Shown piece by piece: positions 1,157 through 54,860 of a stretch of 64,000 nt of DNA. The translations under genes were made by a program, and so were the position numbers. Each line of letters starts with the position of its first letter. Position 1 is the stretch's first letter. The notes beneath the pieces are model-generated. The model did not search any database. It was not told the origin of the DNA and saw only the letters and a list, made by a program, of their open reading frames with translations. This DNA comes from Methylocapsa sp. D3K7 (lineage in GTDB: Bacteria > Pseudomonadota > Alphaproteobacteria > Rhizobiales > Beijerinckiaceae), in the NCBI RefSeq assembly GCF_029855125.1, contig NZ_CP123229.1:1178001-1242000 (forward strand), read 5' to 3'.

Positions 1157-3559
1157 TCATCTGGTGGACTTGATTGAGTCCCGAACCCAAGGCCTCAGTG
1201 TCAAACCGTGCACGATCTCTTCGTTTGAAAATTTTGCCGGCTGTCCTTTCACCCAGCTCTCCTGCTGGTCGGAATAGTGAGGCGAGGCTGGCTGACCAGA
1301 TTGTCCTCCCGGCATGTGAAGTATGCCAGCGCTTTCCCTGCCAGGAGCAACGACCATGCGTTCGCTGGCACCATATTTTCCATCGGCAAATCGCACGCAG
1401 TGACCGCAACCTGGGACCGCCACGCGAGGCATGTCGAGAAAAGAACGGAGGACAGGGACTCCTTCCGTCAGCGGGTGGCGGACATCCACTTCGTTCACAC
1501 TGCCCCAAGTCAGCCCCTCCAAGACCGTCACGCCATGACGCTTTGCCAATTGCGATGCGCTTTGGAGAAGCCGCGCTCTGAGAAATCCATGCCAGTCATG
1601 AAAACTCTGCCTATCAGGCACAAGTTCGGGCCGGCCGCTTTCAATCATGCGCTGGACAGGAACGTCGGCGCTGCTCCAATTGTAAGAAAAACCTGGTTCG
1701 ACATTGCGGCACTTGGCAAGCAGCGGCGCGAGCACGGCCTTCACAAGTTCCTCGCGAAATTCCACCAGCAAAGCAATCCCCTCGGAATTTGTTTCTGCGC
1801 GGCCGTCCCAGGCTTCAAGATAGCGGCGCAGATCGCCCGCCGGAAACGGGCCTAAAGCGTTTTGCCCTTCCAAGACCCGCAAAGCCAGCTTCTGATAATA
1901 GCGGTAGAAATCTGTATCAGTATCAAGTTGCAAGGCTAGCATGTCGGGCTCACTGATACCGTTGAGCTGGTTAAGCCGCTCCGAGATTCGCCAGGCGCGA
2001 TACCCTCCGGAAAAATCATGACCGATCACTACGGAATAGCTGCTGCCGAGCATCCTCTGATTTGCGTTGACAAGGTAGCCAGCCGCGGGATTAACGACGC
2101 TTGGCAGCTCTTCTGGTGGAATATAGCCGTCCCAGCCCTTGCGGCCATCGGCCCAGGACTCACTGAACAGCCCGTCCATGCCAATACGGCGCGGAATTTT
2201 TCCCATATAGGTCCAGCCGATATTCCCGGCAGTATCTGCTAGAAGAACGTTTAAGGGCGGACCGCCCGCCCGATGCAGCTGTATGATCGCATCTGTTACA
2301 GTCGCAGCCCTTGCAAGGCCCATTACACCCAAATCGGTGGTGGTCGGATCGAGCGAGGTCCAGTGAACGGCCACAGGACGACCCAACAATAGCTTCGGCA
2401 GCACCGGTCCCCAAATCGTTGTCCGAACCTGAAGTGTCTCATCCACCCTATCGCGAACATGGATGTTTTCGGTTCTTGTTTCGAAACGAAGAGCGCCCGA
2501 TGGGCTCCGATACCGGCTCGGAACTTTCGTGTCTTCCTCGATCGCGACGAGATCGACGAAATCTCCCTCGATACTGGTCATGCCCCAGGCAATTTGCCCA
2601 TTGGTCCCAGCGATCAGGGCCGGAATGCCAGGCAAGGTCAAGCCTGATAGGCTCACTCCCGGATAGCGTAATGAGGCACGGTACCAGATATTAGGCACCG
2701 AGAGTTCAAGATGCATATCATTGGCCAGGATCGCCCGCCCATCCTGAGTTTTGTTCCCTCCAACGACCCAGGCATTTGAACCGCGCGGGCTGCCGTTGCC
2801 TGATACGATCCCGGAATCGTCATCGCCTCCTGCATTGGCGTTATTCAGAACAGCTATAAGATCGGCAACGGGAATGGCGTCCGTAGCACACCGGCCCGGG
2901 TTTCGCGGCGCCGTGATTTCGTTGTAACAGTCGCTCTCCGGTGTGAGAAAATCGACTACGGATTTCGGTAATACATGCCGCATCACTGTCGCTGTTCGTT
3001 CCTGATCTCCCGTCCAAGTCAGCATCGAGTGCATCGCCAGCATCACAAGAATACTGTCTTCCGGCCGCCATTTTTCGGGCCGATAGCCCAACATCATAAA
3101 CTCGATGGGAAACATCGAGGTCGCCGCCATCGCTTGGTTGACGCCAGCCGAATAGGCCTCAATCAATCGGCGCTGCGCCGCCGGTAGCCGGGCGAGAACT
3201 GCGTCGGCCACGTGGCCAAAGCCCATCGTCCTGTTCCATCGATCCTCTTCCAGCAAATCAGCGCCGAAAATTTCTGCTAGGCGCCCTGCTGTCCCGCGCC
3301 GGAGCAGATCCATTTGGAACAACCGGTCTCTAGCGGTGACGAATCCAAGGGCATAAAAGGCGTCTGCGTCACTTCCAGCGCTAATGCGCGGTACTCCCAA
3401 CCGGTCGAATTCAATCTCGACTATCGCGCCAAGCCCTGCAACTTCAAGAGAACCATCTTCAACAGGAAAAGGTGCGCGAACTATATAAACGAGCGCGGCC
3501 ACAACCCCTGCCAGGATAACCAACAGCGCAAGGGTGGCGTAGCTTATTCCTTTACGCAT
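1157..3559 (-). CDS. PvdQ/penicillin-acylase-like Ntn-hydrolase
   Basis: The 800-residue protein belongs to the penicillin acylase (Ntn-hydrolase) family. An N-terminal membrane segment (about residues 4-29) would send it to the periplasm. The family hallmarks are the early 'D..GVP.I.A....DA..ALG...A.DRLFQM' region and a G-S-N-A-W motif, whose Ser261 should become the N-terminal nucleophile after self-cleavage into two chains. In pyoverdine systems PvdQ removes the fatty acyl tail from the exported precursor; the position here, last in an operon starting with an acyl-loading NRPS, suggests the same job. The ATG at 3559 overlaps the NRPS3 stop by 8 nt (ATGCGTAA), implying translational coupling, with AGG upstream. 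An upstream in-frame ATG at 3601 is possible but lies well inside NRPS3. Alternative roles are quorum-signal or other amide hydrolysis. Confidence 0.85.
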   Translation of the reverse strand: MRKGISYATLALLVILAGVVAALVYIVRAPFPVEDGSLEVAGLGAIVEIEFDRLGVPRISAGSDADAFYALGFVTARDRLFQMDLLRRGTAGRLAEIFGADLLEEDRWNRTMGFGHVADAVLARLPAAQRRLIEAYSAGVNQAMAATSMFPIEFMMLGYRPEKWRPEDSILVMLAMHSMLTWTGDQERTATVMRHVLPKSVVDFLTPESDCYNEITAPRNPGRCATDAIPVADLIAVLNNANAGGDDDSGIVSGNGSPRGSNAWVVGGNKTQDGRAILANDMHLELSVPNIWYRASLRYPGVSLSGLTLPGIPALIAGTNGQIAWGMTSIEGDFVDLVAIEEDTKVPSRYRSPSGALRFETRTENIHVRDRVDETLQVRTTIWGPVLPKLLLGRPVAVHWTSLDPTTTDLGVMGLARAATVTDAIIQLHRAGGPPLNVLLADTAGNIGWTYMGKIPRRIGMDGLFSESWADGRKGWDGYIPPEELPSVVNPAAGYLVNANQRMLGSSYSVVIGHDFSGGYRAWRISERLNQLNGISEPDMLALQLDTDTDFYRYYQKLALRVLEGQNALGPFPAGDLRRYLEAWDGRAETNSEGIALLVEFREELVKAVLAPLLAKCRNVEPGFSYNWSSADVPVQRMIESGRPELVPDRQSFHDWHGFLRARLLQSASQLAKRHGVTVLEGLTWGSVNEVDVRHPLTEGVPVLRSFLDMPRVAVPGCGHCVRFADGKYGASERMVVAPGRESAGILHMPGGQSGQPASPHYSDQQESWVKGQPAKFSNEEIVHGLTLRPWVRDSIKSTR

Positions 3560-6500
3560 CGAGACCTGAAAGCACTTCACCGACCGAAGCATGCAGATCA
3601 CAATTGGATATGATGGATTTGTGATCTCCCTCGATGACCCTCACTTGCGCGATTGACTTCGCCTCGGCCGGCCAATCCACAGGTGGAATGTTGCCTTCGC
3701 CAAGAGTCCCCTGCGCCCACCAAACATGAAGACTCGCAGTCACCTGCGGGATCGTGAACGTATCCTCGATGAGGGCAACATGCTCCCACAGCGAAGTTTC
3801 AAGGCGCAAAACATCGAGTGATATATGGTTGAGCCAAAGTCCCCGCTCTCTCCCCCATAATGCGGCGCTGCCAGCAAGCCGCGTATCCGGGATGTCAGTT
3901 AAAAACCGTCGGAGCTCCGCAACTTCTAGTTCCGATAAATCAGCTAAAGTACGCAGATCTTGAGGATCATCCAGAAACTCTGCAAGACGGCCTTCCCAGT
4001 CATGCAGGGCAAATTTGCGCGGCACTGTCGTATCGATCAGTCCCAAGAAGTCAATATTAGCTCCCAACGCCTCGAGCCGCGCAGCAACGCCAAGTGCGAT
4101 CAGTCCGCCAAGTGACCACCCCATCAGGCGAAAGCGCTCTCCACGATGATGGGCTCGCAGTTCATCGGCATAGTCTTCGACGACAGTCATAAAATCCTGC
4201 GGTTCATCTGATGGATCCCTCATGGCGCGCATTTGGACTCCGTAGATTGAGTGGTCTCTATCGAGCGCGGCAAGCAGCGGATGATAGCCTCGAACGTGCC
4301 CGGCGCCGGTATGAAAGAGATACAGCGGCAATCTCTCCGCCGCACCCTCGCTCAATGTTACAAACAGAGACGTGAAGTCCTCGCTTTGGGACTGCAGCCA
4401 CTCGGCCAATTCCGCGACCGTCGGGTACTGGAATAGAGCGACGAGGGGGATCTCGGTTTGAATTGCATCACGCGCACGTTGCGCAAGTTGGACCGCGAGA
4501 AGAGAATGTCCCCCAAGTTCAAAAAAATTGTCATGCCTGCCAACCAGTGGTAGTGAGAGAATTTCGGCAAAGAGGAAGGCGAGCCGCGCTTCCAAAGCGG
4601 TGGCGGGAGTCGAGTCTTCGTCTAAAACTGCGGGATAGTTATGAACGGGCAGTAAAGACGATAGGATAGCTCGCTGGAGTTTGCCGTTGCTGCCGCGCGG
4701 AAGCTCCGCCATGAGCCGCCATGTGCTGGGGACCATGAAAGCCGGCAATCTTGCCCGAATTTGGCGGCGTAGCACGGAAGATGTGATGCTATCGTCCTTT
4801 GTCACCACAAAAGCCGCTAGGCTTTGCTCCCCGTGAGAATCTGTCCGCAGCACGACGGCCGCTTCCGCTACGCCAGGAACCTCTTCCAAACGGGACTCAA
4901 TTTCCTCAAGCTCGATGCGGAATCCGCGCAGCTTCACCTGATGATCCACGCGTCCCAGAAACTCGAGTGCACCGTCAGACCGCCTGCGGACCAAATCGCC
5001 AGTGCGATACAGCCGGCCTCCGTCTGTCGCAAATGGATCCGGCACGAACCATTGGGCGGTGAGAGCAGGCTGCCGGAAGTAGCCGCGCGCGAGACCAATC
5101 CCAGCAATATAAAGTTCCCCGGCAACCCCCAGTGGGACGAGATTAAGATTCTGATCCAGCACGTGCAAGCTCACGCCATCAATCGGCCGGCCGATCGGCA
5201 CGCCCGCGTCGCTGACCCCGTAACCGGCCGAGGCTCCGCAGGGCCAAAAGCTGGAATCTATCGTGGCCTCCGCTGGCCCATATGTGTTGTAAAGGTGGCA
5301 ATCGAGACTTGCCACGAATTTGCCTCGCAACGATTCGCTCATCGCTTCCCCGCCACAGGATACCACCCGCAGAGTTCGACATTCGTGCCAGCGTGGCTCG
5401 TTCAATACCAGCCGAAGAAGAGATGGCGGTAACTCTATCATCGTCGCCGAATGGCGTATCATCAATTCAATCAAATGCTTCGGATCCCCACCTGCGGTCC
5501 CTGCAAGGACGAGACACGCACCCACAGCAAGGCACCCGAAGATTTCCCCAACAGAGACATCAAAGCTAGGTGAGGCCCGCTGGATGATGACATCATCTGG
5601 GCCAAGTCCGAATTCTGCTTCGCCCCACCTCACACGATTGACAAGCGAACGGTGCGAGACAGCCACGCCCTTAGGACGCCCTGTCGAACCCGAGGTAAAA
5701 AGGAGGTATGCGAGATTCTCCCGATTGATCTGAACGGCTGGGTTCGTTTCGGGAAATATTATGTAAGCGTCTTCTTCAATATTGAGGACGATGCTCGTCT
5801 GGGACGACCCGGTAAGCTCATTGATTGCGGTACCCCGCAATAGGAGTATGCTTGGCGAGGACTCCTCAAGCATCGCTTGCAATCTTGCCGGCGGATAGGA
5901 TGGATCTAGCGGGACATAAGCGGCTCCGGCCTTGAGCACGGCGAGAAGTGCCACGACCAACTCAATGGAGCTCTCAGTAAGAATTCCAATGACAGTCTCT
6001 GGCCCGGCGCCAAGACCGATTAAGCGATGCGCCAGACGGTTGGCGCGGAGGTTGATCTCCTGATAGGTCAACTGGGAGTCGCCATCGACTACAGCAAGCC
6101 GGTCGGGAAAGCGTTTGGCTTGATCTTCGATCAGCGTCACGACAATCTCGGCCGATCGTATTTCCGCTTGCTCTTTTACAACCGAAATATCGAGGCTGTG
6201 GCCAACATCGAGAAGCCACCGCCGCTCCGACCCGGTGAGCATCTCCAGGCTACTCAATCGCGCATCAGGCCGCTCGACGATCGCATTGAGGAGGGTCTCG
6301 TAATGGCTTGCAAGATTCTCGATTGAAGCACGCAAGTACAGGTCAGTGTTATACTCGAAGAGAACCAAAAGTCCGTCTGCTGTCTCGACAACATCAACCG
6401 AAAGGTCGAACATCGCCGTTTTCGTCTCGACGTCAAACGCTTCGATGATGAGATCGCTCATCTCAATACGCGAGTCGGGCGTATTGTCCAGAGAGAAGGC

Positions 6501-9500
6501 GACCTGGAAAAGGGGGTTGTGCCCAAGTTCACGAGCAAGATCGAGCTCCATGACGAGCTGTTCAAAGGGAAGGTCCTGATGGTCTTGTGCTTCTAGGGTC
6601 GCCGTCCGAACACGTGTCAGCAAATCGGTGAAACACGGATCGCCAGAAAGGTCGGTCCGCAGCACCAGCGTATTGACGAAACAACCAATCAATCCCTCGA
6701 GTTCGATCCGCCGCCGGTTGGCGACCGGCGTACCAACGCAAATGTCGTTCTGACCACCATGACGAAACAGCAGCAATTTTAGCGTGGCAAGTAGAACCAT
6801 AAACATTGTCGCGCCATTGCGCCTTGCCAGGGCGCCAAGCTTTTCACTCAAGTTCAGGGGAAGAGACAAGCTATAGCTTGCGCCGGAGTAGCTCTGTATC
6901 TGCGGGCGCGGCCAGTCAGTGGGCAGCCGCAGTATCGCCGGCGCATCCGAAAGGCGTGCATGCCAATAAGTTACCTGCCTCTCAAACTCCTGGCCCGTCA
7001 AATAATCCCGCTGCCAGAGTGAATAATCAGCGTATTGCAGGTTTAAATCGGCAAGCGGTGAAGGCTCAGAGCATATGAAGCTCTTATACAGAACCGCGAG
7101 TTCATCGATGAGGATGCCCATGGACCAGCCATCGGCAATGCTATGATGCAAGCTCAGAACTAAGATATATTCATTTGCACCTCCTTCCTCTGCAGGGGCC
7201 GGTTCGAAAATGCACCCCCGGATCAGCGGGCCGGCTGCAAGGTCAAACGGCTTATGCGCTTCCTCCAGGATCAGGCGGTGCAGCTCCGCCGCTCGCGCTT
7301 CCGCTGGCACATGATGCAAAGGAATCAGCGGCAGGCCAATCTCAAGAGCAGGCTGAATTGATTGAACCGGTTTCCCGTCGATGAGGGGAAAGCAGGTACG
7401 AAGAACCTCGTGGCGTCCACCAACTGCTATCAGGGCCATTCGGAGGGCGTCGATATCGAGGTGCCCGGTAAGACGCAAGGCAAGCGGAATATTGTAGAAT
7501 GAACTGTTCGGCTCCAACTGGTCCAGAAACCAAAGTCTCTGTTGGGCAAACGACAAGGGAATTGGAACGCCACGCGGCCCGGTACCCAAAGGCGGCGATG
7601 CCGCTGCAGGGTTGCTCTTTGAACAATCAGCGGAACTTGAATTGGCGATAAGACAAGCGAGCTTGGCAACAGTCGGCGCCTCAAACAAGGACCGAAGACT
7701 GACCTCGACATTGAGATCTCGCCGAATCCTGGATATGGCACGAATCGCACTTAGTGAGTGTCCACCGATCTCAAAAAAACTCTCATCGATTCCCACGCAT
7801 TCAAGCCAAAGCACGTCCGCCCAGATTCCCGCAAGAATCTCTTCGATCGCTGTTCGCGGGGTAATGTAGTTAGCCCGCACATCAGGCACCCCTTCAGGTG
7901 GTGGTAGGGCCTTGCGATCGACCTTTCCGCTTTCCGTTAGCGGCAAAACATCCAGCGGAACAAAAGAGGCAGGAATCATATAATCTGGCAGATTCTTCCT
8001 CAGTGCTGTCCGCAAAACCTCCGCCGTCACATCACCGACAACATAAGCGACAAGCCGCCTGCCTCCCGACGGATCCGCGAGCGCCACAACAATCGCCCGC
8101 CGCACGTTCGCAACAGCAGAGAGAGCCGTCTCGATCTCGCCAAGTTCAATACGATGACCGCGAATCTTTACCTGATTGTCGATACGGCCAGCATAATGCA
8201 AGTTCCCGTCTGCACTCCAGTGCACCAGGTCGCCGGTGCGGTAAAGCCGCTCGCCCGCCCCGCCAAATGGATTCGGTACGAACCGCTCCGTGGTCAGATC
8301 AGGACGGCCGAGGTAACCGCGCGCCAGGCCAAGGCCACCAATATAGAGCTCCCCTTCAATCCCAACCGGAACAGGCTCGAGATTCCTGTCCAAAACATAA
8401 ACCCGAGTGTTGGCGAGCGGGTGGCCAATCGGGACATCGCGTAGATCGGCGCTCGCGGCGGATAAGATGAACGCCGTCGCCGTAATTGTCGCTTCCGTCG
8501 GGCCATAGGTGTTTATCCAAACGACGTTCTCGCTCGCCAAGGCGCGCCAACACCGCAGGCTTTCCGCAGGGACCTTTTCTCCGCCAACGAAAACAAGCCG
8601 CAAACTCGCCGGAAGAGGCTTCTTCGCATCCATCAGCTGCATTGTCAGTTGGCACCAGTATGCCGTCGTGAGTGCCGCGACGGTGATCTCGGCGCCGGCA
8701 ATAAATTCCACAAAATCGATAAGAAATTCACGATCGCCGCGAGGAGGCAACACAAGCGTCGCGCCGCTAAGCCATGTGGGAAATATTTCTTCGGCAGCTT
8801 GGTCAAAACTGATCGAAGAGAATTGCAAGACCCTGTCCCGTTGATTCAGGTTAAACGTGCCTGTCTGCGCCTGCACCAAATTGATCAGGCTTTCGTGCGT
8901 GACCATTACGCCTTTGGGAAGTCCGGTTGAACCCGAAGTGTAAATCACGTAGGCCAGATTGGCGGGGCCGCTTTGTTGCGGAGGATCAATATCTGGCGCT
9001 AGCACCCATTGCGAGGCATCGCGGTCGAGGCAGACAGTCCTCACCGGAATTGCTGGCAAACAACCCAGAAGATTCTCTTGCGTCAGCAGCACCGCAGTGC
9101 CAGCATCGGTCAGAAGATAGGCGAGACGTTCCCTTGGATAGGCTGGGTCAAGCGGCAAATAGGCACCACCTGCCTTCAAGATGCCGAGGATGCCGATCAC
9201 CATGTCAAGCGACCGCTCAACGAAAAGGCCAACGATCGTCTCGGCCGCTACGCCAAGATTCCGCAGATGATGGGCAAGCCGGTTTGCCTTGGCGTTCAGC
9301 TCGCCATAGGTCAACTGCCCGGCCTCGCACATCACCGCCACCGCGTCCGGATGCCGCGCGGCTTGCGCCGCGAACAACTCGTGAAGAAGATGGTCCTTGG
9401 GGCAATCCGCCGCGGTCGCGTTCCACTCAACAAGCAATTGCCAGAGCTCGGCGGCGTTTAGTAAAGGCAGAGCGCCGATACGGACGTCTGGCGAGGCAGC

Positions 9501-45522: not shown

Positions 45523-46059
45523 TTGAAACCATCGCGGTTCCTTCTATCAAGACGGCAGGTGTTGATCCGTTCAATGGTGCTCGCCACTCTCCTGCAAGCG
45601 CTTTCGACAAGCTTGCGCGCGGAAGTTCGCGTCACGGGCGAGGCGGATGCGGTTAAGATCGAAGCAAACGATACGTCAGTCGAAGAACTGCTAATCAAGC
45701 TCAGCAACATTTATGGTGTGCGGTACAGCTCCTCAGCGGATCTTAGCCGTTCCGTCTCCGGCGCGTTCGACGGGCCGCTTCAACAGGCCATCTCGCGGGT
45801 GCTCTTGCTGCAGGGATACAATTTCAGCATCGAAACAACATCGAACATCATCGAGGTCAGCGTATATGGCAAAGATGCGTTGCACGGCAACAGCGTCGGA
45901 TCCGCTGCTTCCGCCGTGACCGCACCTTCGAGGCATGTTTCGAATTCGTCCCGTCATGCACTCTCAATACGCGCGGTAGGGCATGGGAAACTCGGACTAG
46001 TGGCGCGCATAAATCATCCACATTCGGCTGGTGCCCATCGTTTGCAGGTGCCGGATTGA
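45523..46059 (+). CDS. Free-standing STN-domain secreted protein
   Basis: 178 residues. A signal peptide (basic start, then VLIRSMVLATLLQAL, LRA cleavage) is followed by a region (about 35-115) typical of the secretin/TonB short N-terminal (STN) domain: SVEELLIKLSNIYGV, then SVSGAFDGPLQQAISRVL, then NFSIETTSNIIEVS. STN domains normally sit at the N terminus of TonB receptors and pass a signal to an inner-membrane anti-sigma factor. Here the receptor in the same island lacks one, so this protein could supply it in trans. The C-terminal 60 residues are low-complexity. TTG start, with GGAGGGG upstream; 18 nt after the exporter gene. Confidence 0.7.
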   Translation: MKPSRFLLSRRQVLIRSMVLATLLQALSTSLRAEVRVTGEADAVKIEANDTSVEELLIKLSNIYGVRYSSSADLSRSVSGAFDGPLQQAISRVLLLQGYNFSIETTSNIIEVSVYGKDALHGNSVGSAASAVTAPSRHVSNSSRHALSIRAVGHGKLGLVARINHPHSAGAHRLQVPD

Positions 46060-46402: not shown

Positions 46403-47119
46403 ATGAAAATCCGACGGCAGCTTATGGCTGCCACCGCCCTAGCCGTGTCAATCGCCTTTGTAGTCCCGGCCTTCGCCCATGAGAGCCGCACTTTGCCACC
46501 TGTTTTCGCGCTGGGCAGCAATATCCGGCTGACGGTCGGATTCCACGTCGAACCCGCTTTTGAAGACAGCTTCAATGCCGTCGACGTCATCCTTTATAGC
46601 TACGACGGTGCCTGCGCAGACCCCACGGATTTCTGGGGAAACCCCCTCGACACCAGCGCTGGGGATACCGTGAATTTGAAGGTCGAGGCATTGTATTTGA
46701 AAAATCAGACGCCCCCGACCGGGCCCGGAGGCAACGTTGCTCCCGCCGGAATTCTAAAGACGCTTGCTATTACCGATGCCTCCCCGCTGAAGCAAGCCTT
46801 CGGCAATCCCGGCACCTATAACAGCTGGTTCAGGCCAACCCATCCCGGCAATACAACAACGGGAGGGGCTTATGGCTTCCACGTTAAAGGTACCGTCAGT
46901 GCCGCCGCCAGCACCTACCAATGCGAAGGCGACCCGGCACCCCATTCGCTTGCTGCAAGAACGGTCAGCATCGATTCTTATTTTGTATGCGGCAATGGGT
47001 CGTTGAACCCGCCACACTCTTTTAACTGCGTCGCAGCGATTCAACCTTTCCCCGGCAATGTGAAAGACGGCTATGAGCCAGACAAATCCTTCGGCAGCGG
47101 CAGCGGCCATGGCTGGTAA
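46403..47119 (+). CDS. Secreted four-cysteine protein, paralogue 2
   Basis: 238 residues; start fixed by GGAGGAAACGAT directly upstream. Signal peptide MKIRRQLMAATALAV...VPAFA, cleavage leaving His at the mature N terminus (HESRT). Four cysteines match those of the 42942-43649 paralogue, as do VGFHVEPA, GDTVNLKVE, YNSWFRP, AYGFHVKGT and YFVCGNG. It ends in a Gly/Ser/His-rich tail (GSGSGHGW). Function unknown. Both copies lie in the siderophore island, one on each side of the exporter, and this one converges on the PepSY/receptor operon. A mature N-terminal His plus further conserved His raises the possibility of copper or other metal binding, as in CopC or histidine-brace proteins, but no fold assignment is possible from reading alone. 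Confidence 0.75.
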   Translation: MKIRRQLMAATALAVSIAFVVPAFAHESRTLPPVFALGSNIRLTVGFHVEPAFEDSFNAVDVILYSYDGACADPTDFWGNPLDTSAGDTVNLKVEALYLKNQTPPTGPGGNVAPAGILKTLAITDASPLKQAFGNPGTYNSWFRPTHPGNTTTGGAYGFHVKGTVSAAASTYQCEGDPAPHSLAARTVSIDSYFVCGNGSLNPPHSFNCVAAIQPFPGNVKDGYEPDKSFGSGSGHGW

Positions 47120-47240: not shown

Positions 47241-48518
47241 CTACCGGGCGATATTTGATGTCCCGGAACGGCTCTTCCAGCACCCCCTGACGAAGGCCAA
47301 CGCCGCGAAGCGCTTGCCAGGGGCGCCCACGTCGCCCCGCCGCGAAGCGGAAAATTTTCGCGCACCGCGTTTTTTCCACCAGATATAAATTCCGGTGCAA
47401 GACAGCATGGTGATGGCGAGCCCAAGCACGCTTACAAAAATGCGGTAAGGCATGCCGAAGACATTCGCTTCGTGCAAGGCGTAGAGCCAGCTTGTGACCG
47501 TATTGCCCGCGTATTGCCCGCTCGGTAAGATCAGCTGCCGCAACTCACCCGAATCGGCGTCGAACAAAATTTCCGTGTTGCCGCGCCGGTCCTGTATGTC
47601 GCGGCCACCACGCACCTTGTAGCTGTAGAGTCCCTTTCCCGAGTCAAAGGAGAACCCCATCGGGCGCTCGACCGTGAAGCCGTGGATCTCCGCTTGCTTG
47701 GCCATCAGCCGCTCACCGGCCGAAAGCGCGGCGCGCCAATCGAGACGCGGGGTCTCATTGGGCCGAGGAAGATCGGGCAGCCCCGTTCCGGCAGGCCGGT
47801 AGTCGAGAATCGCCTGCGTGACCCAGCTATAAACCGTGTCCGTCAGATTCATGTAGACGCTCGACCAGGCGAAGATGAGCAGCATTGCCCACAGCCACAA
47901 GCCGCCGGCGCGGTGCAGATCGAAATTGATCCGGAAGGCGCCCGCCCTCCATTTGACGAGCCAGGCGGGTTTCCAATGCCGCCAAAAGTTGCCGATGCCA
48001 GCTGGCAGCGTGAGATAGACTCCGATGAAGCAATCCAGCGTCCAAACCAACGCAACGATGCCCATGATCCAGAAACCGGTGAGGCCGAGCGCCAATTTGA
48101 AGTGCAGGCTATAGATGAACGGCATCAGATTGATCCAGCCTTGCGAGAGATCCCCCCAGGCGCGGCGGCCAAGCTCGTCGCCAGTATAAGGATCGAGGAA
48201 AAGCTGGTTGAAGCCGAGCGTGTTGTCTCCAGTTTCGGACCCCTCGCGCGGGATGATCGTCACAAGCACCTGATCCGGCTCGGCGAAGGAGACCGAATAG
48301 ACCTGCCCCTTCGGGACCAAGGCCTCGGCGCGCAAGGCAAGCGCCGCCGCGTCGAGCGGTACCGCGCCCGGTTTTGGCGCGGCATAGAGCTGCGGGCTGA
48401 TCAGCCGCTCCAGCTCGCTGTTGAAGGCGAGCAGGCTGCCAGTGATTCCAACGACGATAAGGAAGCCCGCCATCAGCAGTCCCGCCCAGCGATGGAGGAA
48501 CACCCAAAAGCGGCGCAT
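47241..48518 (-). CDS. PepSY-associated inner-membrane protein (FoxB/PiuB-like)
   Basis: 425 residues with about four membrane helices: near residue 10-32 (HRWAGLLMAGFLIVVGITGS), 140-165, 205-225 and 365-388. Conserved His residues occur near them (LHRWAGL, SLHFKLALGL, DLHRAGGLW, ALHEANVFG) and can bind haem. This is the PepSY-TM family found beside ferric-siderophore receptors (FoxB, PiuB, FegB), believed to reduce or help release iron from the siderophore. It starts three nt after the receptor stop, so the two are translated together. The basic C-terminal tail lies in the cytoplasm. Confidence 0.88.
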   Translation of the reverse strand: MRRFWVFLHRWAGLLMAGFLIVVGITGSLLAFNSELERLISPQLYAAPKPGAVPLDAAALALRAEALVPKGQVYSVSFAEPDQVLVTIIPREGSETGDNTLGFNQLFLDPYTGDELGRRAWGDLSQGWINLMPFIYSLHFKLALGLTGFWIMGIVALVWTLDCFIGVYLTLPAGIGNFWRHWKPAWLVKWRAGAFRINFDLHRAGGLWLWAMLLIFAWSSVYMNLTDTVYSWVTQAILDYRPAGTGLPDLPRPNETPRLDWRAALSAGERLMAKQAEIHGFTVERPMGFSFDSGKGLYSYKVRGGRDIQDRRGNTEILFDADSGELRQLILPSGQYAGNTVTSWLYALHEANVFGMPYRIFVSVLGLAITMLSCTGIYIWWKKRGARKFSASRRGDVGAPGKRFAALAFVRGCWKSRSGTSNIAR

Positions 48519-48521
48519 AGG

Positions 48522-50873
48522 TCAGTACTCCACTTTGAGCGACACGGTGACGGCACGCGGCGTGCCGGTGTAGATCCCAAATCTCGGCGCGTTGTTGAAA
48601 AAGAAATCGGTGCCCGGGTAATAGTTCGTGTTGGCGATGTTCTGCAGATTGACTTGCGCGGTCCAGCGCGTCGGGCCGAAGACGGCTTTGTAGGCCGCAA
48701 AAGCGTCGAGGCGCGCGTAGGCCGGAAGAATAAAGGTGTCCTGGTTATCTCCCCACCGGTCGCCCACGGCATAGACACCGCCGCCCGCGCGCCAGCCATG
48801 AAACATGGAGACGGCTGGAAACTCATAGGCGAGGAACAGGCTGCCGGAGTTCGGCGCAACACCCCCAGGCGTCAAGCCAAGCAAACCGCCTGCGAACGGG
48901 TCGAGAGGGTCCGGAACGGTGTCCTTGATCACCTTCGTATCGAGATGCGCATAGCTGGCGATGATGCTGATCTCGTTGGTGAGCTTGCCCAGCGCATCGA
49001 GTTCGACACCCTGGCTGCGCACTTGGCCAATCGGCCGCGATTCAGCGATTGGATTGAAGGGATCCGTCGACGTCAAGACATTGCTTTTCGTGATGGTGAA
49101 GAAGGCAAGCGTCGTTGTCAGCCTGTGATCGAGCAGCTCGGTCTTGACACCGCCTTCCCATCCTTCCGCGATTTCCGGTGGGAGCGGCAGGTTGTTGTTC
49201 GAGAGGCCATTGGCCGCTCCAAACGACTTGGTATAGCTGCCATAGAAACCGAGCCAAGGCACGGGTTGATAATTCACACCGATGCGCGGGCTGAATGCCT
49301 GATTGTGCTGGTCCGGATTTGCATCAAAATTCGCGGAGGCTTCGGCAAAATTTCCGGCGCCCGTAAAATTATTGGAATTCCCGGACCGTACATCAGCCAA
49401 ATCGTAGCGGCCGCCCACCAAAATATGGAGATTATCGAAGAGAGTGATGGAATCTTGCGCATAGATGCCAAGATCCCTCTGCTGGTTGCTACTAAAGGAC
49501 CTGAAGCCAGACGTCCCCGACCACGCCATGGTGGCGGCGGAGGCAAACTCCCAATACGGCACCGTGCCATAGACCGGATTGTAGATGTTGATCGGGAAAT
49601 CTCCGTTGCCCGAAAGCACATAGTTATAGAAGCTGTAGAAATAGTCGGTGCCAATCAAAACATCGTTGCGGACATTTGCCACATAGAACTTGCCGGTCAG
49701 ATCGAGATTCGCGGAATAATTCGTGCCCGTCAATTTTTGATAGGTAATGCCTCGATCGAGCATATAAGCAGGCAATGTATTGCCCGCTACGACGCAAGGA
49801 GCCGGGGCTGCTGGGTCCTGGAAGAAAAAGCAATTCCCGGTCAAATCGGTTTTTTCGATTGTGGCTCTTGCCGCGAGGAACCGGTTGGTGATGGCCCAAT
49901 TATTGTCGAACTCATGCCTGAAATTATAACTGATAAGCGAGCTGCGGACCGTATCCTGCGGCTCGTTGGGATCCAGGAACGACCGGCTCACCGGAATGTT
50001 GGCGGGGAACGCGCCGATCGCGGGCTGGCCGGTGTTGCTTCGCCCATCCTCGCGATTGTACTGCGCCTCGACCGTCAGTTTCGTCGAGGGGTCGATCTTC
50101 CAGGTGATGGACGGCGCCAGCAAAAGGCTCCGGGTCTCCGTGAAGTCCACCCATTGGCCGCCATCTTGATAGCTGCCTGAAAACCGGTAGCTTACGGCAC
50201 CTTTGTCCAGATCCGGAATGTCAACCGGGCCGGTGAGATCCCACACCGAGCGCAACATATTGAACGAGCCCATCTGCTGCTCGATACTGTAGTAAGGAGT
50301 GTCTAGGGGCTTCTTGGTCACCAAATTGATCACGCCGCCAGGATCGGCGCGGCCAAACAGAAAGGAGGCGGGACCTTTTAAGACATCCACGCTTTGCAGA
50401 TTGGCGGTATCGTAGGATTGGGGAATGGCCACCCCAATCAACAGGCCGTCGCGGAGCACATTGAAGCTGTTAAAGCCGCGAATGTTAAAGACATACCCTT
50501 CGATGTTGTTGTTGCTCGAGCGCACACCGCTGACATTTTCGAGCGCGTCCTGAATGTTGACGGCGTTCTGATCGATGATGACCTGCTCCGGCACCGTCTG
50601 GATCGCGATCGGAAGATCGAAAGTTGGTACCGCGATCTTGGTGGTGCTTTGCTGGATGGACGGGGCGCTGTAGCCAGCCTTTTCCCCAGGGCTTTCTGGC
50701 GGTCCGTTCCCTGCCCCCCCGCCTTCACCGCCGCCGTCCGTGGCGGTGACCTCGACGGTGGGCAGAGCAATGGCACCACCTGCAGCGGCAGGCTGATCGG
50801 CTGTTTGGGCGAACGCCTGGGCGAGCGGAAGTACCGCCACGCTGGCGAGAAGGATGAGTTTCATTTTTAACAT
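48522..50873 (-). CDS. TonB-dependent ferric-siderophore receptor
   Basis: 783 residues. Signal peptide (LILLASVAVLPLAQAFA), a short Gly-rich linker, then a TonB-box-like/plug region (about 55-200: PIAIQTVPEQVI, DALENVSGVR, FNIRGF, DVLKGPASFLFGRADPGGVINLVTKKP), and a long beta-barrel ending in an aromatic residue (SLKVEY). These are the hallmarks of FhuA/FpvA-class siderophore receptors. It lacks the extra N-terminal STN signalling domain, unlike FpvA; a separate STN protein is encoded at 45523-46059. It should import the ferric form of the island's own peptide. Co-transcribed with the PepSY gene and probably with the DUF2946-like gene upstream (86-nt gap containing a hairpin). Confidence 0.93.
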   Translation of the reverse strand: MLKMKLILLASVAVLPLAQAFAQTADQPAAAGGAIALPTVEVTATDGGGEGGGAGNGPPESPGEKAGYSAPSIQQSTTKIAVPTFDLPIAIQTVPEQVIIDQNAVNIQDALENVSGVRSSNNNIEGYVFNIRGFNSFNVLRDGLLIGVAIPQSYDTANLQSVDVLKGPASFLFGRADPGGVINLVTKKPLDTPYYSIEQQMGSFNMLRSVWDLTGPVDIPDLDKGAVSYRFSGSYQDGGQWVDFTETRSLLLAPSITWKIDPSTKLTVEAQYNREDGRSNTGQPAIGAFPANIPVSRSFLDPNEPQDTVRSSLISYNFRHEFDNNWAITNRFLAARATIEKTDLTGNCFFFQDPAAPAPCVVAGNTLPAYMLDRGITYQKLTGTNYSANLDLTGKFYVANVRNDVLIGTDYFYSFYNYVLSGNGDFPINIYNPVYGTVPYWEFASAATMAWSGTSGFRSFSSNQQRDLGIYAQDSITLFDNLHILVGGRYDLADVRSGNSNNFTGAGNFAEASANFDANPDQHNQAFSPRIGVNYQPVPWLGFYGSYTKSFGAANGLSNNNLPLPPEIAEGWEGGVKTELLDHRLTTTLAFFTITKSNVLTSTDPFNPIAESRPIGQVRSQGVELDALGKLTNEISIIASYAHLDTKVIKDTVPDPLDPFAGGLLGLTPGGVAPNSGSLFLAYEFPAVSMFHGWRAGGGVYAVGDRWGDNQDTFILPAYARLDAFAAYKAVFGPTRWTAQVNLQNIANTNYYPGTDFFFNNAPRFGIYTGTPRAVTVSLKVEY

Positions 50874-50959: not shown

Positions 50960-51388
50960 TCAAACTGTCAGGGGAGGTGCACGGGGGGACCGGCTGCTCA
51001 TAAAGCCGGTATCGAACGGCGGTGCCGCATTCGAGCGAGTGGATGGTATTGCCTCGCCAGGCAAACGTTCTGGCAACGGTGCGAAGGCCGGAAGAATAAC
51101 GGAATGGCCGGGCGTGGAACCATGCGCGCCCACTCCGCAGAGGACGCAATGATGCGCCTGATGCGTGTGAGCCTTGCCTGGCGCGCCTGCGTCTCCGCCT
51201 ATGTCGGAAGCCGCCGCCGCCGCCGCGCAGATGACATTGGCAAAAGACGAACCCTGGTCGCGCTCGATCGATTGACCCGAGGCGGTCCCGAAGCCGCCGA
51301 GAACCCCGTTGATCGCAAGCAGATAGGCGAGTGCGATTGGCAAAACCGCACGCAGGCGCATAGCTGTTTTTGTCACGGGCCGGAACAT
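50960..51388 (-). CDS. Small DUF2946-like secreted protein
   Basis: 142 residues. A hydrophobic N-terminal segment (LRAVLPIALAYLLAINGVL) indicates a signal peptide or anchor. A cysteine in ANVICAA and the H-x-A-H-H-C-V-L-C-G motif follow, resembling DUF2946 proteins, which are often encoded next to TonB receptors and have no established role. The Cys/His cluster could bind a metal. GGAAGAA precedes the ATG at 51388; an internal ATG at 51361 would also keep the signal segment. It precedes the receptor gene on the same strand. Confidence 0.6.
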   Translation of the reverse strand: MFRPVTKTAMRLRAVLPIALAYLLAINGVLGGFGTASGQSIERDQGSSFANVICAAAAAASDIGGDAGAPGKAHTHQAHHCVLCGVGAHGSTPGHSVILPAFAPLPERLPGEAIPSTRSNAAPPFDTGFMSSRSPRAPPLTV

Positions 51389-51585: not shown

Positions 51586-52806
51586 TTATTCACGCCGTAG
51601 CGCATCAATCGGATTGAGCGCCGCGGCCCGGCGCGCCGGGAGATAGCCGAAGAGAACTCCAACCCCAACGGAAGACAAAACCGCTATGACCACGCTCGAC
51701 GGTCCAATAATCAAGGGCCAGCCCGCCACCTGCGCCACCCCATAGCCGCCAGCGACACCAAGAGCGAACCCCACGGCGCCTGCTGCAAGACAGAGCACGA
51801 CGGCTTCAGTCAAAAATTGCGCGAGAATATCGCGCTTGCGGGCGCCGATCGCCATGCGAAGACCAATCTCGTGCGTGCGCTCGGTGACCGACACCAGCAT
51901 GATATTCATAATGCCAACCCCACCCACGACGAGCGAAATTGCCGCTGTCGCCGCGAGCAGCCAACTAAGCGTCGTTTGCGTGGCATTCATCAGCTCGACA
52001 AACTGTGTTGGATCGAACATATCGAACCTGTCTTGCTCGCCCTCATGGATATGCTTGCGCTGGCGCAGCAGCGCCAGGATCGTATCCTTGGTGGCCCCCC
52101 GGTCCGCGTCCGGCGCGACTTTCATATCGATCAAATTGAGCTGATGCGCCGAGGCCCTATCCTCTTGCGGCAAGCGCGAGCGGGCCGTCGTAATCGGAAC
52201 GATAACGTGATTGTCAAAATCTTGTCCGCCAACAGATCCGAGTTGTGAACGCACGCCAATGACCTGCATAGGTACCCCGCCCATGCGCACCATTTGGTCA
52301 ACCGGTGACCCGGACCCGAACAGTTTTTCCGCAACTGTTGCGCCAAGTACGATGACCTTGGCTCCCGACCGCACCTCTCGTTCCTCGAAGAACCGGCCCT
52401 CCGATGTCGTCACGTTAAACACATCAGCATATGCGGCATCGACACCCCAATATTGGGGAGTCCAGCTCTTGTTGCCAGCAATGATCGTAACATTTCCATC
52501 GACTTCCCTGGAAATATGGCGGACATCCGGGACACGCTCTGCGATGGCCCTCACATCCTCGTCGGTCAGCTGCACGACAGGGCCCCGCTGACCGGCATTG
52601 GTCACCTTGATTGGGCTTGCGATCAGAGTGTCGGCACCCATTGCGGAGAGCTGTTTCTCGACCATCTTCTCGGCGCCGCCACCGGCCGCTCCAAGAACAA
52701 TGATGCCCGCGACACCTATGATGACACCAATGGCGGTGAGTGCGCTGCGCAGCGCGTTGAGTCGCAGCGAAGTGACCGCCTCGGAGAGCAAAGCGGCCGG
52801 TGTCAT
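51586..52806 (-). CDS. MacB/PvdT-like ABC permease
   Basis: 406 residues in the MacB permease layout: a first helix near residue 20-45 (LTAIGVIIGVAGIIVLG), a large periplasmic domain (50-275), then three C-terminal helices with the family motif GGVGIMNIMLVSVTERTHEIGLRMAIGA and the end LPARRAAALNPIDALR. Here the permease is a separate protein from its ATPase, with which its start overlaps by four nt. With the adaptor it forms a pump like PvdRT-OpmQ, which secretes mature or recycled pyoverdine from the periplasm. No outer-membrane factor gene is present, so a TolC-type channel must be encoded elsewhere. Confidence 0.92.
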   Translation of the reverse strand: MTPAALLSEAVTSLRLNALRSALTAIGVIIGVAGIIVLGAAGGGAEKMVEKQLSAMGADTLIASPIKVTNAGQRGPVVQLTDEDVRAIAERVPDVRHISREVDGNVTIIAGNKSWTPQYWGVDAAYADVFNVTTSEGRFFEEREVRSGAKVIVLGATVAEKLFGSGSPVDQMVRMGGVPMQVIGVRSQLGSVGGQDFDNHVIVPITTARSRLPQEDRASAHQLNLIDMKVAPDADRGATKDTILALLRQRKHIHEGEQDRFDMFDPTQFVELMNATQTTLSWLLAATAAISLVVGGVGIMNIMLVSVTERTHEIGLRMAIGARKRDILAQFLTEAVVLCLAAGAVGFALGVAGGYGVAQVAGWPLIIGPSSVVIAVLSSVGVGVLFGYLPARRAAALNPIDALRRE

Positions 52807-53546
52807 GGCTTGGAGCCCCCAGCGGGCAACCGGGAGGCATTTTGGCGCACGTCCTCGATGAGTTCGCCATCACGAAAACGCAACAGGCGCCCGGCGTAGG
52901 CGGCGACGTCCGGTTCATGGGTGATCACGATCACCGTGAGCCCTTCGGCATGAAGTTTCACGAAAAGATCCATGATCTCATCCGAGGTATGGGTGTCGAG
53001 CGCGCCCGTCGGTTCGTCGGCGATGATGATGCCGGGATTGTTGATAAGAGCGCGCGCGATGGCCACCCGCTGCTGCTGACCCCCGGAAAGCTGCGCCGGC
53101 CGGTGCTGAAGGCGGGCACCGAGTCCGACCGCTTCGAGCTTGGCGCGGGCGCGGGCCGCCGCATTCCCCTCCGTTCGCGGCGCGTAGACGAGCGGCAGCA
53201 TGACATTTTCAAGCGCGCTCATCCGGGACAGCAGATTGAATTGCTGGAACACAAAGCCGATGTCCCGGTTGCGCAAGCGCGCCAGCCCGTCGCCAGACAA
53301 TTCGGCAACTGGCTCACCATCGATCACGAGTATGCCGGAGGTTGGCGTGTCGAGCGCGCCAAGGAGATTGGCCAAGGTCGATTTGCCTGACCCGGACGCT
53401 CCCATGATGGCGACGAACTCGCCGCGCGAAATGCTAAAGGTCACCCCGTGCAACGCATGGACCTGCTCGGCGCCAAGGTCGTAGATTTTGCTGAGCGAGG
53501 TGCAAGCGATGATTGGCGCCGCCGGCGCGCCGGATTGTGGTGACAT
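52803..53546 (-). CDS. MacB-type ABC ATPase subunit
   Basis: 247 residues, LolD/MacB-type ATPase: Walker A GASGSGKST, Q-loop FVFQQFNLL, signature LSGGQQQRVAIARAL, Walker B IIIADEPTGALD and switch His in VITHEPD. The start codon directly follows the adaptor stop (TGA-ATG), and its own stop overlaps the permease start. It powers the tripartite pump with its neighbours. Confidence 0.94.
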   Translation of the reverse strand: MSPQSGAPAAPIIACTSLSKIYDLGAEQVHALHGVTFSISRGEFVAIMGASGSGKSTLANLLGALDTPTSGILVIDGEPVAELSGDGLARLRNRDIGFVFQQFNLLSRMSALENVMLPLVYAPRTEGNAAARARAKLEAVGLGARLQHRPAQLSGGQQQRVAIARALINNPGIIIADEPTGALDTHTSDEIMDLFVKLHAEGLTVIVITHEPDVAAYAGRLLRFRDGELIEDVRQNASRLPAGGSKP

Positions 53547-54860
53547 TCAAGGCCTCCGCCGCTCCGCCGCGCTCTTGACGCGCAGGACGGCCGCCTCGCC
53601 CTGCTTGACCTCGCCATCGAGAATTTCGGTTGCCGTGTCGCCCCGGAGGCCCAACCGCACCGTCCGCCGTTCAAGTGCTCCACTTGGCGCGGTCACCCAT
53701 ATCGCGGCACCATCCGGGATATCTCGGCCACCTGCTGGCGGCCGGAACCGCAATGCATCGTTGGGGACACTCAGCACATTCTCGCGTCTGTCGCCGATAA
53801 TCTTCACGGTGGCGGTCATATCGGGAAAAAGCCGTTGGCCGGGGTTTTGCGCCTTGATGATCACCGTATAAGTGACGACGCCAGCGGTCTTCGCGGCGGC
53901 AAGCCGGACCTGCTCCACGGTGCCTTCGAATGTCTCGTCCGGAAAGGCCTCCACCGAGAACGTGACCGGGGCACCGGGCCGCACGGGACCGATATCCGCC
54001 TCATCGACCTGTGCGAAGATCAGGATTTGCGAAAGATCCTGGGCGATCTGAAACAAAATCGGCGTTTGGTATTGTGCGGCGACCGTCTGACCCGGCTGTA
54101 TCCGCCGGTCGACAACGACCCCGTTGATCGGGGATCGGATCAAGGTATGGTCGAGATCGATTTGCGCTTGAGAAACATCGGCCTCGCGGAGCGCGACGGC
54201 CGCCTTGGCCGATTCCAATTGGGCGGCGGCCATCGCCAGCTCGGCTCGCGCCAAGCTAAGCTGGGTTTGCGCATCCTCGCGGCTCTTTTGCGACACGACG
54301 CCCTTGGGCGATAGCAGTTCGAAACGCGTGGCATCGCGCTCGTCTTGCGCGATCCTCGCGCGCGCCCTTGTCATCGCCGCTTCGCGCAGCCCAATGTCCG
54401 CCTTTGCCATGGCAAGATTGGCGGCGGCCGATGCCAATTTTGCCTCGAAAGGGGCGCGGTCAATGATCGCGAGGAGATCCCCTTCCTTCACCGGATCGTT
54501 GAAATCCGCCTTCATTTCGAAGATCAAGCCCGAAAGCTGCGACCCGACATCAACGGTCACAAGGGCCTTCACCGAACCGGTCGCCGAAATGCTGCGCTCC
54601 ACCACCCCGACGCCAACGGGTCGCGTCTCGTAGGAAGGCGCGGCGTCATCGCTCCTGCTCGCATAGTGCCACCCCCCAGCCGCCAGCATCACAGCAGCGG
54701 TGGCCGCAAGCGCAAGCCCCGTCGCCCTCCAGCCGGCCAAAGGCTTCCGCACGCGCAGCAAACGCCCATCCGTGGTGGCCCGCCAGCTCATTATTCTGCA
54801 CAGCTCCGTCGTTTCGGCACGTGGCTCCCCCGAGGAACCTAGGTTGATTGTCGCAGGCAT
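53547..54860 (-). CDS. PvdR/MacA-like periplasmic adaptor
   Basis: 437 residues of the RND/MacA membrane-fusion family. One N-terminal membrane anchor (about 46-65) is followed by a lipoyl half-motif (GSQLSGLIFEM), a long alpha-helical hairpin rich in Ala (about 135-245), the second lipoyl half (IRSPINGVVVDRRIQPGQTV) and beta-barrel domains (FPDETFEGTVEQVR; FPDMTATVKI). First gene of the three-gene pump operon. The 45-residue cytoplasmic N-terminal stretch is longer than usual; an internal ATG (MSWRATTDG, residue 24) could be the true start. Confidence 0.9.
   Translation of the reverse strand: MPATINLGSSGEPRAETTELCRIMSWRATTDGRLLRVRKPLAGWRATGLALAATAAVMLAAGGWHYASRSDDAAPSYETRPVGVGVVERSISATGSVKALVTVDVGSQLSGLIFEMKADFNDPVKEGDLLAIIDRAPFEAKLASAAANLAMAKADIGLREAAMTRARARIAQDERDATRFELLSPKGVVSQKSREDAQTQLSLARAELAMAAAQLESAKAAVALREADVSQAQIDLDHTLIRSPINGVVVDRRIQPGQTVAAQYQTPILFQIAQDLSQILIFAQVDEADIGPVRPGAPVTFSVEAFPDETFEGTVEQVRLAAAKTAGVVTYTVIIKAQNPGQRLFPDMTATVKIIGDRRENVLSVPNDALRFRPPAGGRDIPDGAAIWVTAPSGALERRTVRLGLRGDTATEILDGEVKQGEAAVLRVKSAAERRRP

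Follow-up and report, generated by a model that had tools for sequence, protein, structure and literature searches.

A 54-kb gene set in a methane-oxidising bacterium (positions 1157-54860 of the window, the whole 64,000-nucleotide stretch of Methylocapsa sp. D3K7 contig NZ_CP123229.1 analysed here) appears, from its domains and gene order, to direct the synthesis, export and re-import of a metal-binding peptide. We give just under an even chance to the reading that this island makes, exports, matures and re-imports a nonribosomal metallophore of methanotrophs, with copper as its most likely metal. The host carries pmoA and belongs to a methanotroph genus (relatives Methylocapsa and Methylocella), and variants of the island occur in sister species. 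A CruR-type gene stands ahead of the uptake genes, and copper for methane oxidation, not iron, may therefore be what the peptide brings in.

The island and its predicted product

Open reading frames, domains and their order (Table 1) agree with a first-pass annotation that had listed three NRPSs, FAAL loading, a SyrP-like hydroxylase, MbtH, a Dab aminotransferase, a PvdE-like exporter, a MacAB-like pump, a TonB receptor and a PepSY protein. Its statement that no unrelated genes interrupt the island also stands, but four genes had been left unnamed: the DUF2946/CruR-type frame, two paralogous exported-looking proteins (PER1 and PER2) and a weakly STN/FecR_C-like protein. The reading as a complete NRPS metallophore island, whose product has eight residues, is N-methylated and is probably deacylated, is likewise supported. 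Among the matches listed in the searches there is no description of the island.

Table 1. Features of the island, with positions in the window and the matches behind each name
Feature	Positions	Strand	Basis
Penicillin-amidase/PvdQ-like N-terminal nucleophile acylase	1157..3601	-	Penicil_amidase 1e-166; N-terminal hydrophobic stretch
NRPS3: C-A(Thr)-T-dual C-A(Thr)-T-E-C-A(X)-T-C-A(Orn-like)-T-TE	3552..18830	-	E, dual and TE labels from order and motifs
NRPS2: interface-like C-A(His)-T-E-C-A(Thr)-MT-T	18827..27925	-	Domain reading; E label from order
TauD-type Fe/2-oxoglutarate hydroxylase, putative His beta-hydroxylase	27895..28956	-	TauD 2.4e-38
NRPS1: FAAL-ACP-C-A(Ser)-T-C-A(Dab)-T-C	29006..38998	-	Domain reading
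Macrolide/UDP-type glycosyltransferase	39366..40724	+	UDPGT 2.9e-11; MGT 99.5 bits, below cut-off 260
Diaminobutyrate transaminase	40721..42328	+	NF005393 720 bits, above cut-off 671
MbtH-like protein	42382..42663	+	PF03621 80 bits
PER1, exported-looking, paralogue of PER2	42942..43649	+	No Pfam match
Cyclic-peptide/PvdE-type ABC exporter	43798..45504	+	TIGR01194 433 bits, above cut-off 286
Short protein, weakly FecR_C/STN-like	45523..46059	+	E 0.04 and 0.16, both below cut-offs
PER2, exported-looking, uncharacterised family	46403..47119	+	96 homologues; no Pfam match
PepSY_TM inner-membrane reductase-like protein	47241..48518	-	PF03929 9.5e-61; PDB 7abw 7e-61
TonB-dependent receptor	48522..50873	-	TIGR01783 321 bits, above its cut-off
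CruR-type (DUF2946) upstream ORF	50960..51388	-	PF11162 31.7 bits, above 23.7
MacB-like permease	51586..52806	-	Family match
MacB-like ATPase	52803..53546	-	Family match
MacA-like periplasmic adaptor	53547..54860	-	Family match

The assembly line comprises FAAL loading, eight modules and a thioesterase, the domains of NRPS3 having been read with profiles made from the window's own domains. Alignment gave the eight A-domain codes DVWHISLIDK, DIWELTADDK, DSALIAEVWK, DFWNIGMVHK (three times), DQEAFGTITK and DVGESGTIDK, which we take to specify Ser, Dab, His, three Thr, X and an Orn-like residue. The predicted product is thus acyl-Ser-Dab-(OH)His-NMeThr-Thr-Thr-X-Orn, in agreement with codes previously read by hand, which had ended in Dab/Orn. 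The fourth module in line holds a methyltransferase domain (Pfam), and positions 15979-17417 and 20655-22093, each carrying one copy of the same Thr A domain, are 100% identical across 1439 bp. NRPS2 opens with a condensation-like domain that has AISPLCGDRASL at the active-site region in place of HHxxxDG, as we would expect of an interface domain. This domain, the His-type code DSALIAEVWK and a TauD enzyme with HxE...H (facial-triad candidates HNE at 127 and H321) lie side by side.

In the proposed mechanism, the FAAL would start the chain with a fatty acid, the eight modules would add Ser, Dab, His, N-methyl-Thr, Thr, Thr, X and the Orn-like residue, and the TauD enzyme, docked on the interface-like domain, would hydroxylate His on its carrier. 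The PvdE-type exporter would carry the acyl peptide to the periplasm, where the acylase may strip the acyl chain and thereby free H2N-Ser-Dab-(OH)His, a putative Xaa-Yaa-His Cu(II)-binding (ATCUN) terminus; MacAB would complete secretion. Xaa-Dab-His with a free N-terminus is a classical Cu(II)/Ni(II) ATCUN site. The acylase carries GSNAW from residue 274, presumably in the Ntn role, and scores 42.6 bits against the NCBIfam PvdQ equivalog model (cut-off 950), which places it outside that equivalog; it is still an acylase of the penicillin-amidase family.

The first-pass annotation had read the island as a corrugatin-like iron-siderophore system, on the premise that corrugatin-type siderophores of Pseudomonas are acylated octapeptides with beta-OH-His. 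The metallophore character and the eight residues are supported; kinship with corrugatin is not, as neither the hydroxylase nor the interface-like domain has a close Pseudomonas relative among the matches listed. Within the best 120 of 4269 hydroxylase matches, all organism-named rows in the 61-83% band are methanotrophs or Beijerinckiaceae and Pseudomonas-named rows stand at 54-55%; the best 120 matches to the N-terminal domain of NRPS2, many without an organism name, include no Pseudomonas-named protein. The predicted peptide resembles corrugatin, ornicorrugatin and histicorrugatin in being acylated as assembled; FAAL and eight modules would give an acylated octapeptide, although the acylase may leave the mature form without its acyl chain. 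N-methyl-Thr, a glycosyltransferase and a CruR-type gene are points of difference. Nor is iron established as the metal, because a CruR-type copper uORF heads the receptor operon and beta-OH-His is the only recognised NRP chelator pathway within the island.

A CruR-type reading frame ahead of the receptor

The DUF2946 frame ends 86 bp before the receptor start, with PepSY_TM next, which is the placement expected of CruR, and a motif scan read CVLC, 51 residues, RAPP, three residues and the stop, so that both CXXC and the C-terminal RAPP are present. In Bordetella, the nascent DUF2946 protein of cruR-crtA-crpH senses copper (PMC9426467, PMC12914433 and PMC13038864, in excerpt), the CXXC-RAPP spacing is 45, and a five-residue insertion weakened the response (excerpt of PMC9426467). 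The window and the Bordetella pertussis CruR-CrtA-CrpH system share the order DUF2946 uORF, TonB receptor, PepSY_TM as well as CXXC and RAPP; they differ in spacing (51 in the window, not 45) and in the PepSY_TM protein, which in the window is nearer to 7abw. We take 7abw to be the ferrisiderophore reductase FoxB. CrpH falls in a different sequence cluster from FoxB (excerpt of PMC13038864). No high-affinity CrtA ligand has been identified in Bordetella, according to the available part of PMC12914433, whereas in the window a peptide synthesis island adjoins. If the DUF2946 gene acts as CruR, plentiful copper would turn off expression of the receptor and PepSY_TM genes.

Methylocapsa aurea (G002) repeats the window's order MacA-MacB-DUF2946-receptor-PepSY, on a contig other than that of its NRPS genes, and this architecture in both genomes speaks for copper. 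The spacing of 51, found in both and removed from the value near 45, speaks against it; at 12 other DUF2946 loci of the genus fitting the pattern, the spacing is 45-46 in nine and 49-54 in three. Diverged CruR-like frames precede the receptor in M. palsarum (G003) and Methylocystis iwaonis. None was found before the receptor in M. acidiphila (G001), G008 or Methylocystis bryophila, and these three of seven islands also count against copper.

Beyond the island, CruR-type frames were found in all five distinct methanobactin loci examined, and one precedes the sigma-FecR-receptor operon of OB3b, whose FecR gene CQW49_RS21790 is reportedly raised without copper on methane; the authors of that work tie the operon to iron uptake. 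Both occurrences count towards copper. The island also suggests that regulators of CruR type may be widespread at the copper loci of methanotrophs, those of methanobactin among them. In the literature covered, this is touched on only by a comment about MbnPH-like genes within CruR operons (PMC9426467). By eye, no Fur/Irr/RirA-type motif was seen in the upstream regions.

Related islands and their hosts

Seven related islands were counted, leaving out Methylomagnum (43% hydroxylase, ornithine hydroxylase present) and G012 (40% hydroxylase, mostly Ser codes) because their stretches show no His code. In six of the seven, the third residue after the acylated N-terminus is His, which favours copper; the exception, Ser-Dab-Dab-His in G008, counts against it. 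The islands of M. acidiphila, M. aurea and M. palsarum share the FAAL-Ser-Dab-His start, the TauD enzyme and the interface-like domain, and those of M. acidiphila and M. palsarum also the acylase and PER1/PER2; all three differ in later residues where readable, and their receptor genes lie elsewhere in the genome. Plasmid p1 of Methylocystis bryophila S285 (NZ_CP019949.1) has the same DabAT-MbtH-FAAL NRPS-TauD (67%)-NRPS order and receptor-PepSY-MacA-MacB set, but its first code is Asp-type, it has a second His code and other later residues, and a two-component system stands where the window has CruR. Thirteen further hydroxylase relatives among genome contigs (36-49%; Nostoc, Streptomyces and others) have other codes, with no DSALIAEVWK in their stretches, and belong to a different system.

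All five genus genomes with a hydroxylase of at least 68%, host included, carry pmoA (p 0.10 within the genus, uncorrected for kinship), and MbnC was found in none of the 10 genus members in the sample, the host among them (9/199 overall; G002 and G008 lay outside the sample). Both observations favour copper. Methanobactin is likewise a copper peptide of methanotrophs, with CruR-type frames at its loci, but it is ribosomal, whereas the window peptide would be nonribosomal. Two further points on the same side are an ornithine-hydroxylase match of only 26 bits in the host (family cut-off 21.3), where five other members of the genus score 356-379, and the lack of IucA/IucC in 15 of 15 genus genomes.

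PER genes lie in the islands of the host, M. acidiphila (69% for PER1) and M. palsarum (74%), and were not seen in the G002 and G008 stretches; the acylase was not found in about 72 kb of the M. bryophila plasmid or in the M. iwaonis stretch. These absences tell against copper. In the PER2 family, a His-Glu pair is invariant in 54 aligned rows, directly after a likely signal peptide (cleavage site placed by eye), and the AF2 model has mostly strands (mean pLDDT 86). At E 1e-6 the family occurs in 5 of 199 genomes, each of them among the 20 with pmoA, a count uncorrected for kinship, and a CruR-type frame precedes PER in G031; both speak for copper. Sequence comparison with the PDB gave no match, kinship with MbnP found no support (hhalign probability 0.2), and a PER-CopC fusion (P0212) on a 2.3-kb, probably chimeric metagenome contig was set aside.

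Receptor kinship and the choice of metal

The receptor has orthologues of 62-75% in the four other genus members with a hydroxylase of at least 68%, plus G011, as expected of a cognate receptor encoded in the island. Across the genus, the hydroxylase at this level occurs in 5 of 15 genomes and a receptor of at least 62% in the same five plus G011 (p 0.002, uncorrected for kinship). Such co-occurrence argues against a lipopeptide made for a different role, as surfactant or antibiotic, whose island resembles that of a metallophore only in look; the Thr/Ser-rich peptide and the macrolide-type glycosyltransferase would suit such a product, which we consider very improbable.

With one program, the receptor scored 379-414 bits against methanobactin-locus receptors, 141 against FhuA and 73 against a NIS-linked M. 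iwaonis receptor, which leans towards copper; a cyanobacterial receptor adjoining an iron-siderophore binding protein scored 311. Of three receptor trees, one of 16 rows set island and methanobactin receptors together against FhuA and Fiu. Receptor phylogeny was dropped as proof of copper because a 24-row tree with more iron-linked controls did not join the two; in it, a Rhizobium receptor beside iron ABC permeases branches with the island clade (81/92). This tree, the 311-bit score of the cyanobacterial receptor, the membership of the receptor in TIGR01783 with ferrisiderophore receptors as its best PDB matches, and the closeness of PepSY_TM to 7abw all weigh against copper.

An iron siderophore, an acyl peptide in the broad beta-OH-His class, with the CruR-type gene only halting import when copper would load the siderophore, is a serious possibility, if short of probable. 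Pyoverdine of Pseudomonas has an acylated precursor, a PvdE exporter, the PvdQ acylase, a MacAB/PvdRT-like pump and PepSY_TM. The window has counterparts of each, its exporter matching TIGR01194, in which PvdE presumably falls, and this resemblance favours iron, as do the receptor family and 7abw; the window differs in having no recognised chromophore gene and an acylase outside the PvdQ equivalog. The Asp-type first code and second His code of the M. bryophila version would also suit iron, as would the M. iwaonis plasmid, where the related receptor-PepSY-MacAB genes have as a neighbour an IucA/IucC locus that brings a separate receptor and PepSY_TM. Beta-OH-His counts among the recognised chelators of NRP metallophores (PMC12971057, in excerpt), but the peptide predicted for the window contains no other recognised chelator of hard metals. 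A copper-sensor-type frame before the receptor likewise speaks against iron, and three of the five island-bearing members (G002, G003 and G008) have a separate ornithine-hydroxylase and condensation-domain locus, the host and G001 showing weak matches only.

Methylotrophs use lanthanide methanol dehydrogenases, and Xaa-Yaa-His sites bind Ni(II) too. A lanthanide- or nickel-oriented metallophore would be in keeping with the response of OB3b to cerium, which raises a TonB receptor together with the cyclic-peptide ABC exporter next to it, the exporter type of the window (PMC12482762, in excerpt), but none of the island's genes was recognised as lanthanide-linked and the regulator is of copper-sensor type; we hold this improbable.

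On the copper reading, the TonB receptor would re-import the metal-loaded peptide and PepSY_TM may reduce the metal. A fuller scheme, which we regard as somewhat unlikely in its entirety, is that methanotrophs lacking methanobactin rely on a nonribosomal chalkophore with an Xaa-Dab-His N-terminus of ATCUN type as its copper site; a fatty acid would cover this site while the peptide is made and exported, and the acylase would uncover it in the periplasm, with a CruR nascent peptide controlling the receptor and PER proteins passing copper towards pMMO. To our knowledge, there is no settled answer to how methanotrophs without methanobactin acquire copper for particulate methane monooxygenase. The metals bound by the products of the NRPS siderophore clusters of OB3b are not known, according to the available part of a 2026 paper on that strain (PMC12811070). 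For the question of copper supply without methanobactin, the island offers specific genes together with a predicted product and a candidate regulator and, if the copper reading is true, would represent an additional class of chalkophore, with a copper site unmasked by deacylation.

Island architecture and setting

The host, Methylocapsa sp. D3K7, has a single-contig genome of 4.15 Mb that includes the window and one copy of pmoA. Relatives named among the protein matches listed (Methylocapsa acidiphila, M. palsarum, M. aurea, Methylocella sp. and Beijerinckiaceae bacteria) place it in a genus that includes methanotrophs. The first-pass annotation had described a complete siderophore-type island; the island is real and its gene set complete, while a siderophore reading is now the main rival to a copper one. 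The adenylation codes read by hand in that annotation were confirmed by alignment, giving acyl-Ser-Dab-(OH)His-NMeThr-Thr-Thr-X-Orn as the predicted product. The code of residue X is DQEAFGTITK, and the nearest code seen, DQEPFGTITK in M. palsarum, likewise stands second to last. Recent gene conversion, duplication or an assembly effect could each account for the identical Thr domains.

Island genes, in order within each group, and other features of the host and compared genomes
Feature	Coordinates	Strand	Content or position
NRPS1		minus	first in transcription order; FAAL, Ser, Dab, terminal C
TauD hydroxylase		minus	between NRPS1 and NRPS2
NRPS2		minus	after TauD hydroxylase; interface-like, His, E, Thr + methyltransferase
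NRPS3		minus	after NRPS2; Thr, Thr, E, X, Orn-like, thioesterase
Acylase		minus	after NRPS3, last of NRPS-side genes
Plus-strand genes		plus	glycosyltransferase, Dab transaminase, MbtH, PER1, PvdE-type ABC exporter, short STN/FecR_C-like protein, PER2
Second minus-strand group		minus	MacA, two MacB parts, DUF2946, receptor, PepSY_TM (transcription order)
Thr adenylation domains of different NRPS genes	window 15979-17417 and 20655-22093		100% identity over 1439 bp
Island neighbours	window 55067-62367		HAD hydrolase, glycogen-debranching-like protein; by eye, ORFs like glucose-6-phosphate dehydrogenase, 6-phosphogluconate dehydrogenase, glucokinase, sugar aldolase/kinase
Another host NRPS ORF	G000:C1:682326-690032		4099 aa; three condensation domains score identically (repeated modules)
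TonB receptor, M. bryophila plasmid p1	L050 353-5236		annotated at 1627 aa; receptor models cover residues 116-796
Large NRPS locus, G012 (genus member without pmoA match)	G012:C1 ~5071638-5120298		several Ser codes; 40% identical hydroxylase adjoins PvdE-type exporter
PER gene, G031	L067 10359-11710		preceded by CruR-type ORF; kinase-like ORF beyond, by eye

CruR-type ORFs at the receptor and elsewhere

The gene preceding the window receptor encodes a DUF2946 protein. In Bordetella, according to Roy et al. (PMC9426467), a gene of this type was shown to be a copper-responsive upstream ORF, CruR, in which CXXC is the sensor and RAPP, three residues from the end, the arrest motif, and whose relatives often stand ahead of TonB receptor and PepSY_TM genes. 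The window protein contains CVLC and ends in RAPPLTV; the CruR motif pattern matched once in the window and once across 60 block-of-three shuffles of it. M. aurea carries the same six genes (MacA to PepSY_TM) in the window's order, on a different contig from its NRPS genes; its DUF2946 product shares 45% identity with that of the window and likewise has 51 residues between the two motifs. Ahead of the receptor, M. palsarum has a diverged version of the ORF (E 1.4e-11; RGPP, and the second Cys lost) and M. iwaonis a degenerate one (6.7e-6; LAPP, without CXXC), and no CruR-type ORF was found at the receptor in M. acidiphila, G008 or M. bryophila. At E 0.01, 13 of the 15 genus members have a DUF2946 match (above cut-off in 10), indicating that its position rather than the family itself is island-specific; the host's sole match is the gene before the receptor.

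A profile search found CruR-type ORFs in all five distinct methanobactin loci examined (L109, L110, L111, L116 and L108/L115, the last being the same locus counted once), those of G196 and G145 among them. The ORF lies directly before the receptor in the C49 locus and before sigma-FecR-receptor genes in M. parvus, and judging from sequence, methanobactin uptake may commonly be under CruR control in Methylocystis and Methylosinus. The C49 ORFs are annotated as hypothetical proteins. C49 has two more receptor-PepSY loci, both with two-component systems; such an ORF is present at one and absent from the other. In OB3b a CruR-type ORF precedes a sigma-FecR-receptor operon whose FecR gene is reported among those raised in the absence of copper, in a study whose authors link it to iron. 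CruR-type ORFs also precede sigma-FecR-receptor genes in G011 and, in G031, a gene of the exported-looking PER family; no NRPS ORF was seen within the 20-kb G031 stretch, so this family occurs apart from the island too. None was found at Gloeocapsopsis or Rhizobium receptors with iron-transport neighbours, at Trichormus or Nostoc receptors, or at FhuA and Fiu of E. coli; Methylobacterium radiotolerans gave one weak match before another receptor.

Related islands and their distribution

FAAL and the His code are common to seven islands: those of the host, M. acidiphila, M. aurea, M. palsarum, G008, M. bryophila plasmid p1 and an M. iwaonis plasmid. Gene order predicts a Ser-Dab-His start for five of them, whose counterpart is Asp-Dab-His in the M. 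bryophila island and Ser-Dab-Dab-His in that of G008; later residues differ, leaving acyl-Xaa-Dab-His as the conserved head. Across 15 genus genomes the hydroxylase is 68-74% identical in four besides the host and 40% in one. TauD had no match in the M. iwaonis stretch, which contains a cupin-like protein. Besides the host, M. acidiphila, M. palsarum and G008 have the acylase (at 64, 63 and 46%, respectively), a count limited in M. aurea by a contig that stops within its NRPS genes; the M. bryophila and M. iwaonis stretches showed no acylase. PER genes turned up in the islands of the host, M. acidiphila and M. palsarum, and in neither the M. aurea (40 kb) nor the G008 (80 kb) stretch.

Among 199 family genomes, pmoA occurs in 20. 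The PER2 family (E 1e-6) occurs in five, all with pmoA (Fisher p 6e-6, kinship uncorrected), two of which (G011, G031) had no hydroxylase match at E 1e-60. The methanobactin marker MbnC occurs in nine, all with pmoA, and in none of 10 sampled genus members, a sample lacking M. aurea and G008. Within the genus, the link to pmoA is 5/10 vs 0/5 for the hydroxylase (p 0.10) and 6/10 vs 0/5 for the receptor (p 0.04).

Copper and iron

A free H2N-Xaa-Yaa-His terminus is a classical amino-terminal Cu(II)/Ni(II) site. In the predicted product the N-acyl chain would block this terminus until the acylase freed it outside the cytoplasm, an arrangement that would also shield the cell; N-methylating residue 4 would leave the following amide without an NH that could compete as a ligand. 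The His may be in the D form, since its module appears to be followed by an E-type domain. For a siderophore, hexadentate iron binding is not evident: the predicted peptide has one beta-hydroxy-His, and among the island's genes no enzyme for a hydroxamate or catechol was recognised. The PepSY protein, closest to 7abw (the ferrisiderophore reductase FoxB), speaks for iron. M. aurea, M. palsarum, G004, G005 and G008 have a separate locus in which an ornithine hydroxylase (356-379 bits) lies about 3 kb from a condensation domain; it could take on iron acquisition in three of the genus' five island hosts. Matches in the host and M. acidiphila are weak (26 and 29 bits).

The window receptor scored, all with one program, 379-414 bits against methanobactin-locus receptors, 480 and 241 bits against the M. 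iwaonis and M. bryophila island receptors, 311-329 bits against two cyanobacterial receptors, 233 bits against a Rhizobium iron-ABC-linked receptor and 141 bits against FhuA. The larger tree did not resolve how these receptor groups are related, so the receptor family does not name the metal.

Among the matches listed for corrugatins, beta-hydroxyhistidine siderophores, methanotroph NRPS, ATCUN/chalkophore and CruR/methanobactin, no description was found of this island or of a methanotroph NRPS chalkophore; NRPS-type chalkophores elsewhere include diisonitrile lipopeptides and chalkophomycin. Within already known kinds, the island is of a new type. A siderophore remains the main alternative reading, and the evidence for copper, while not proof, is more specific than that for a siderophore.
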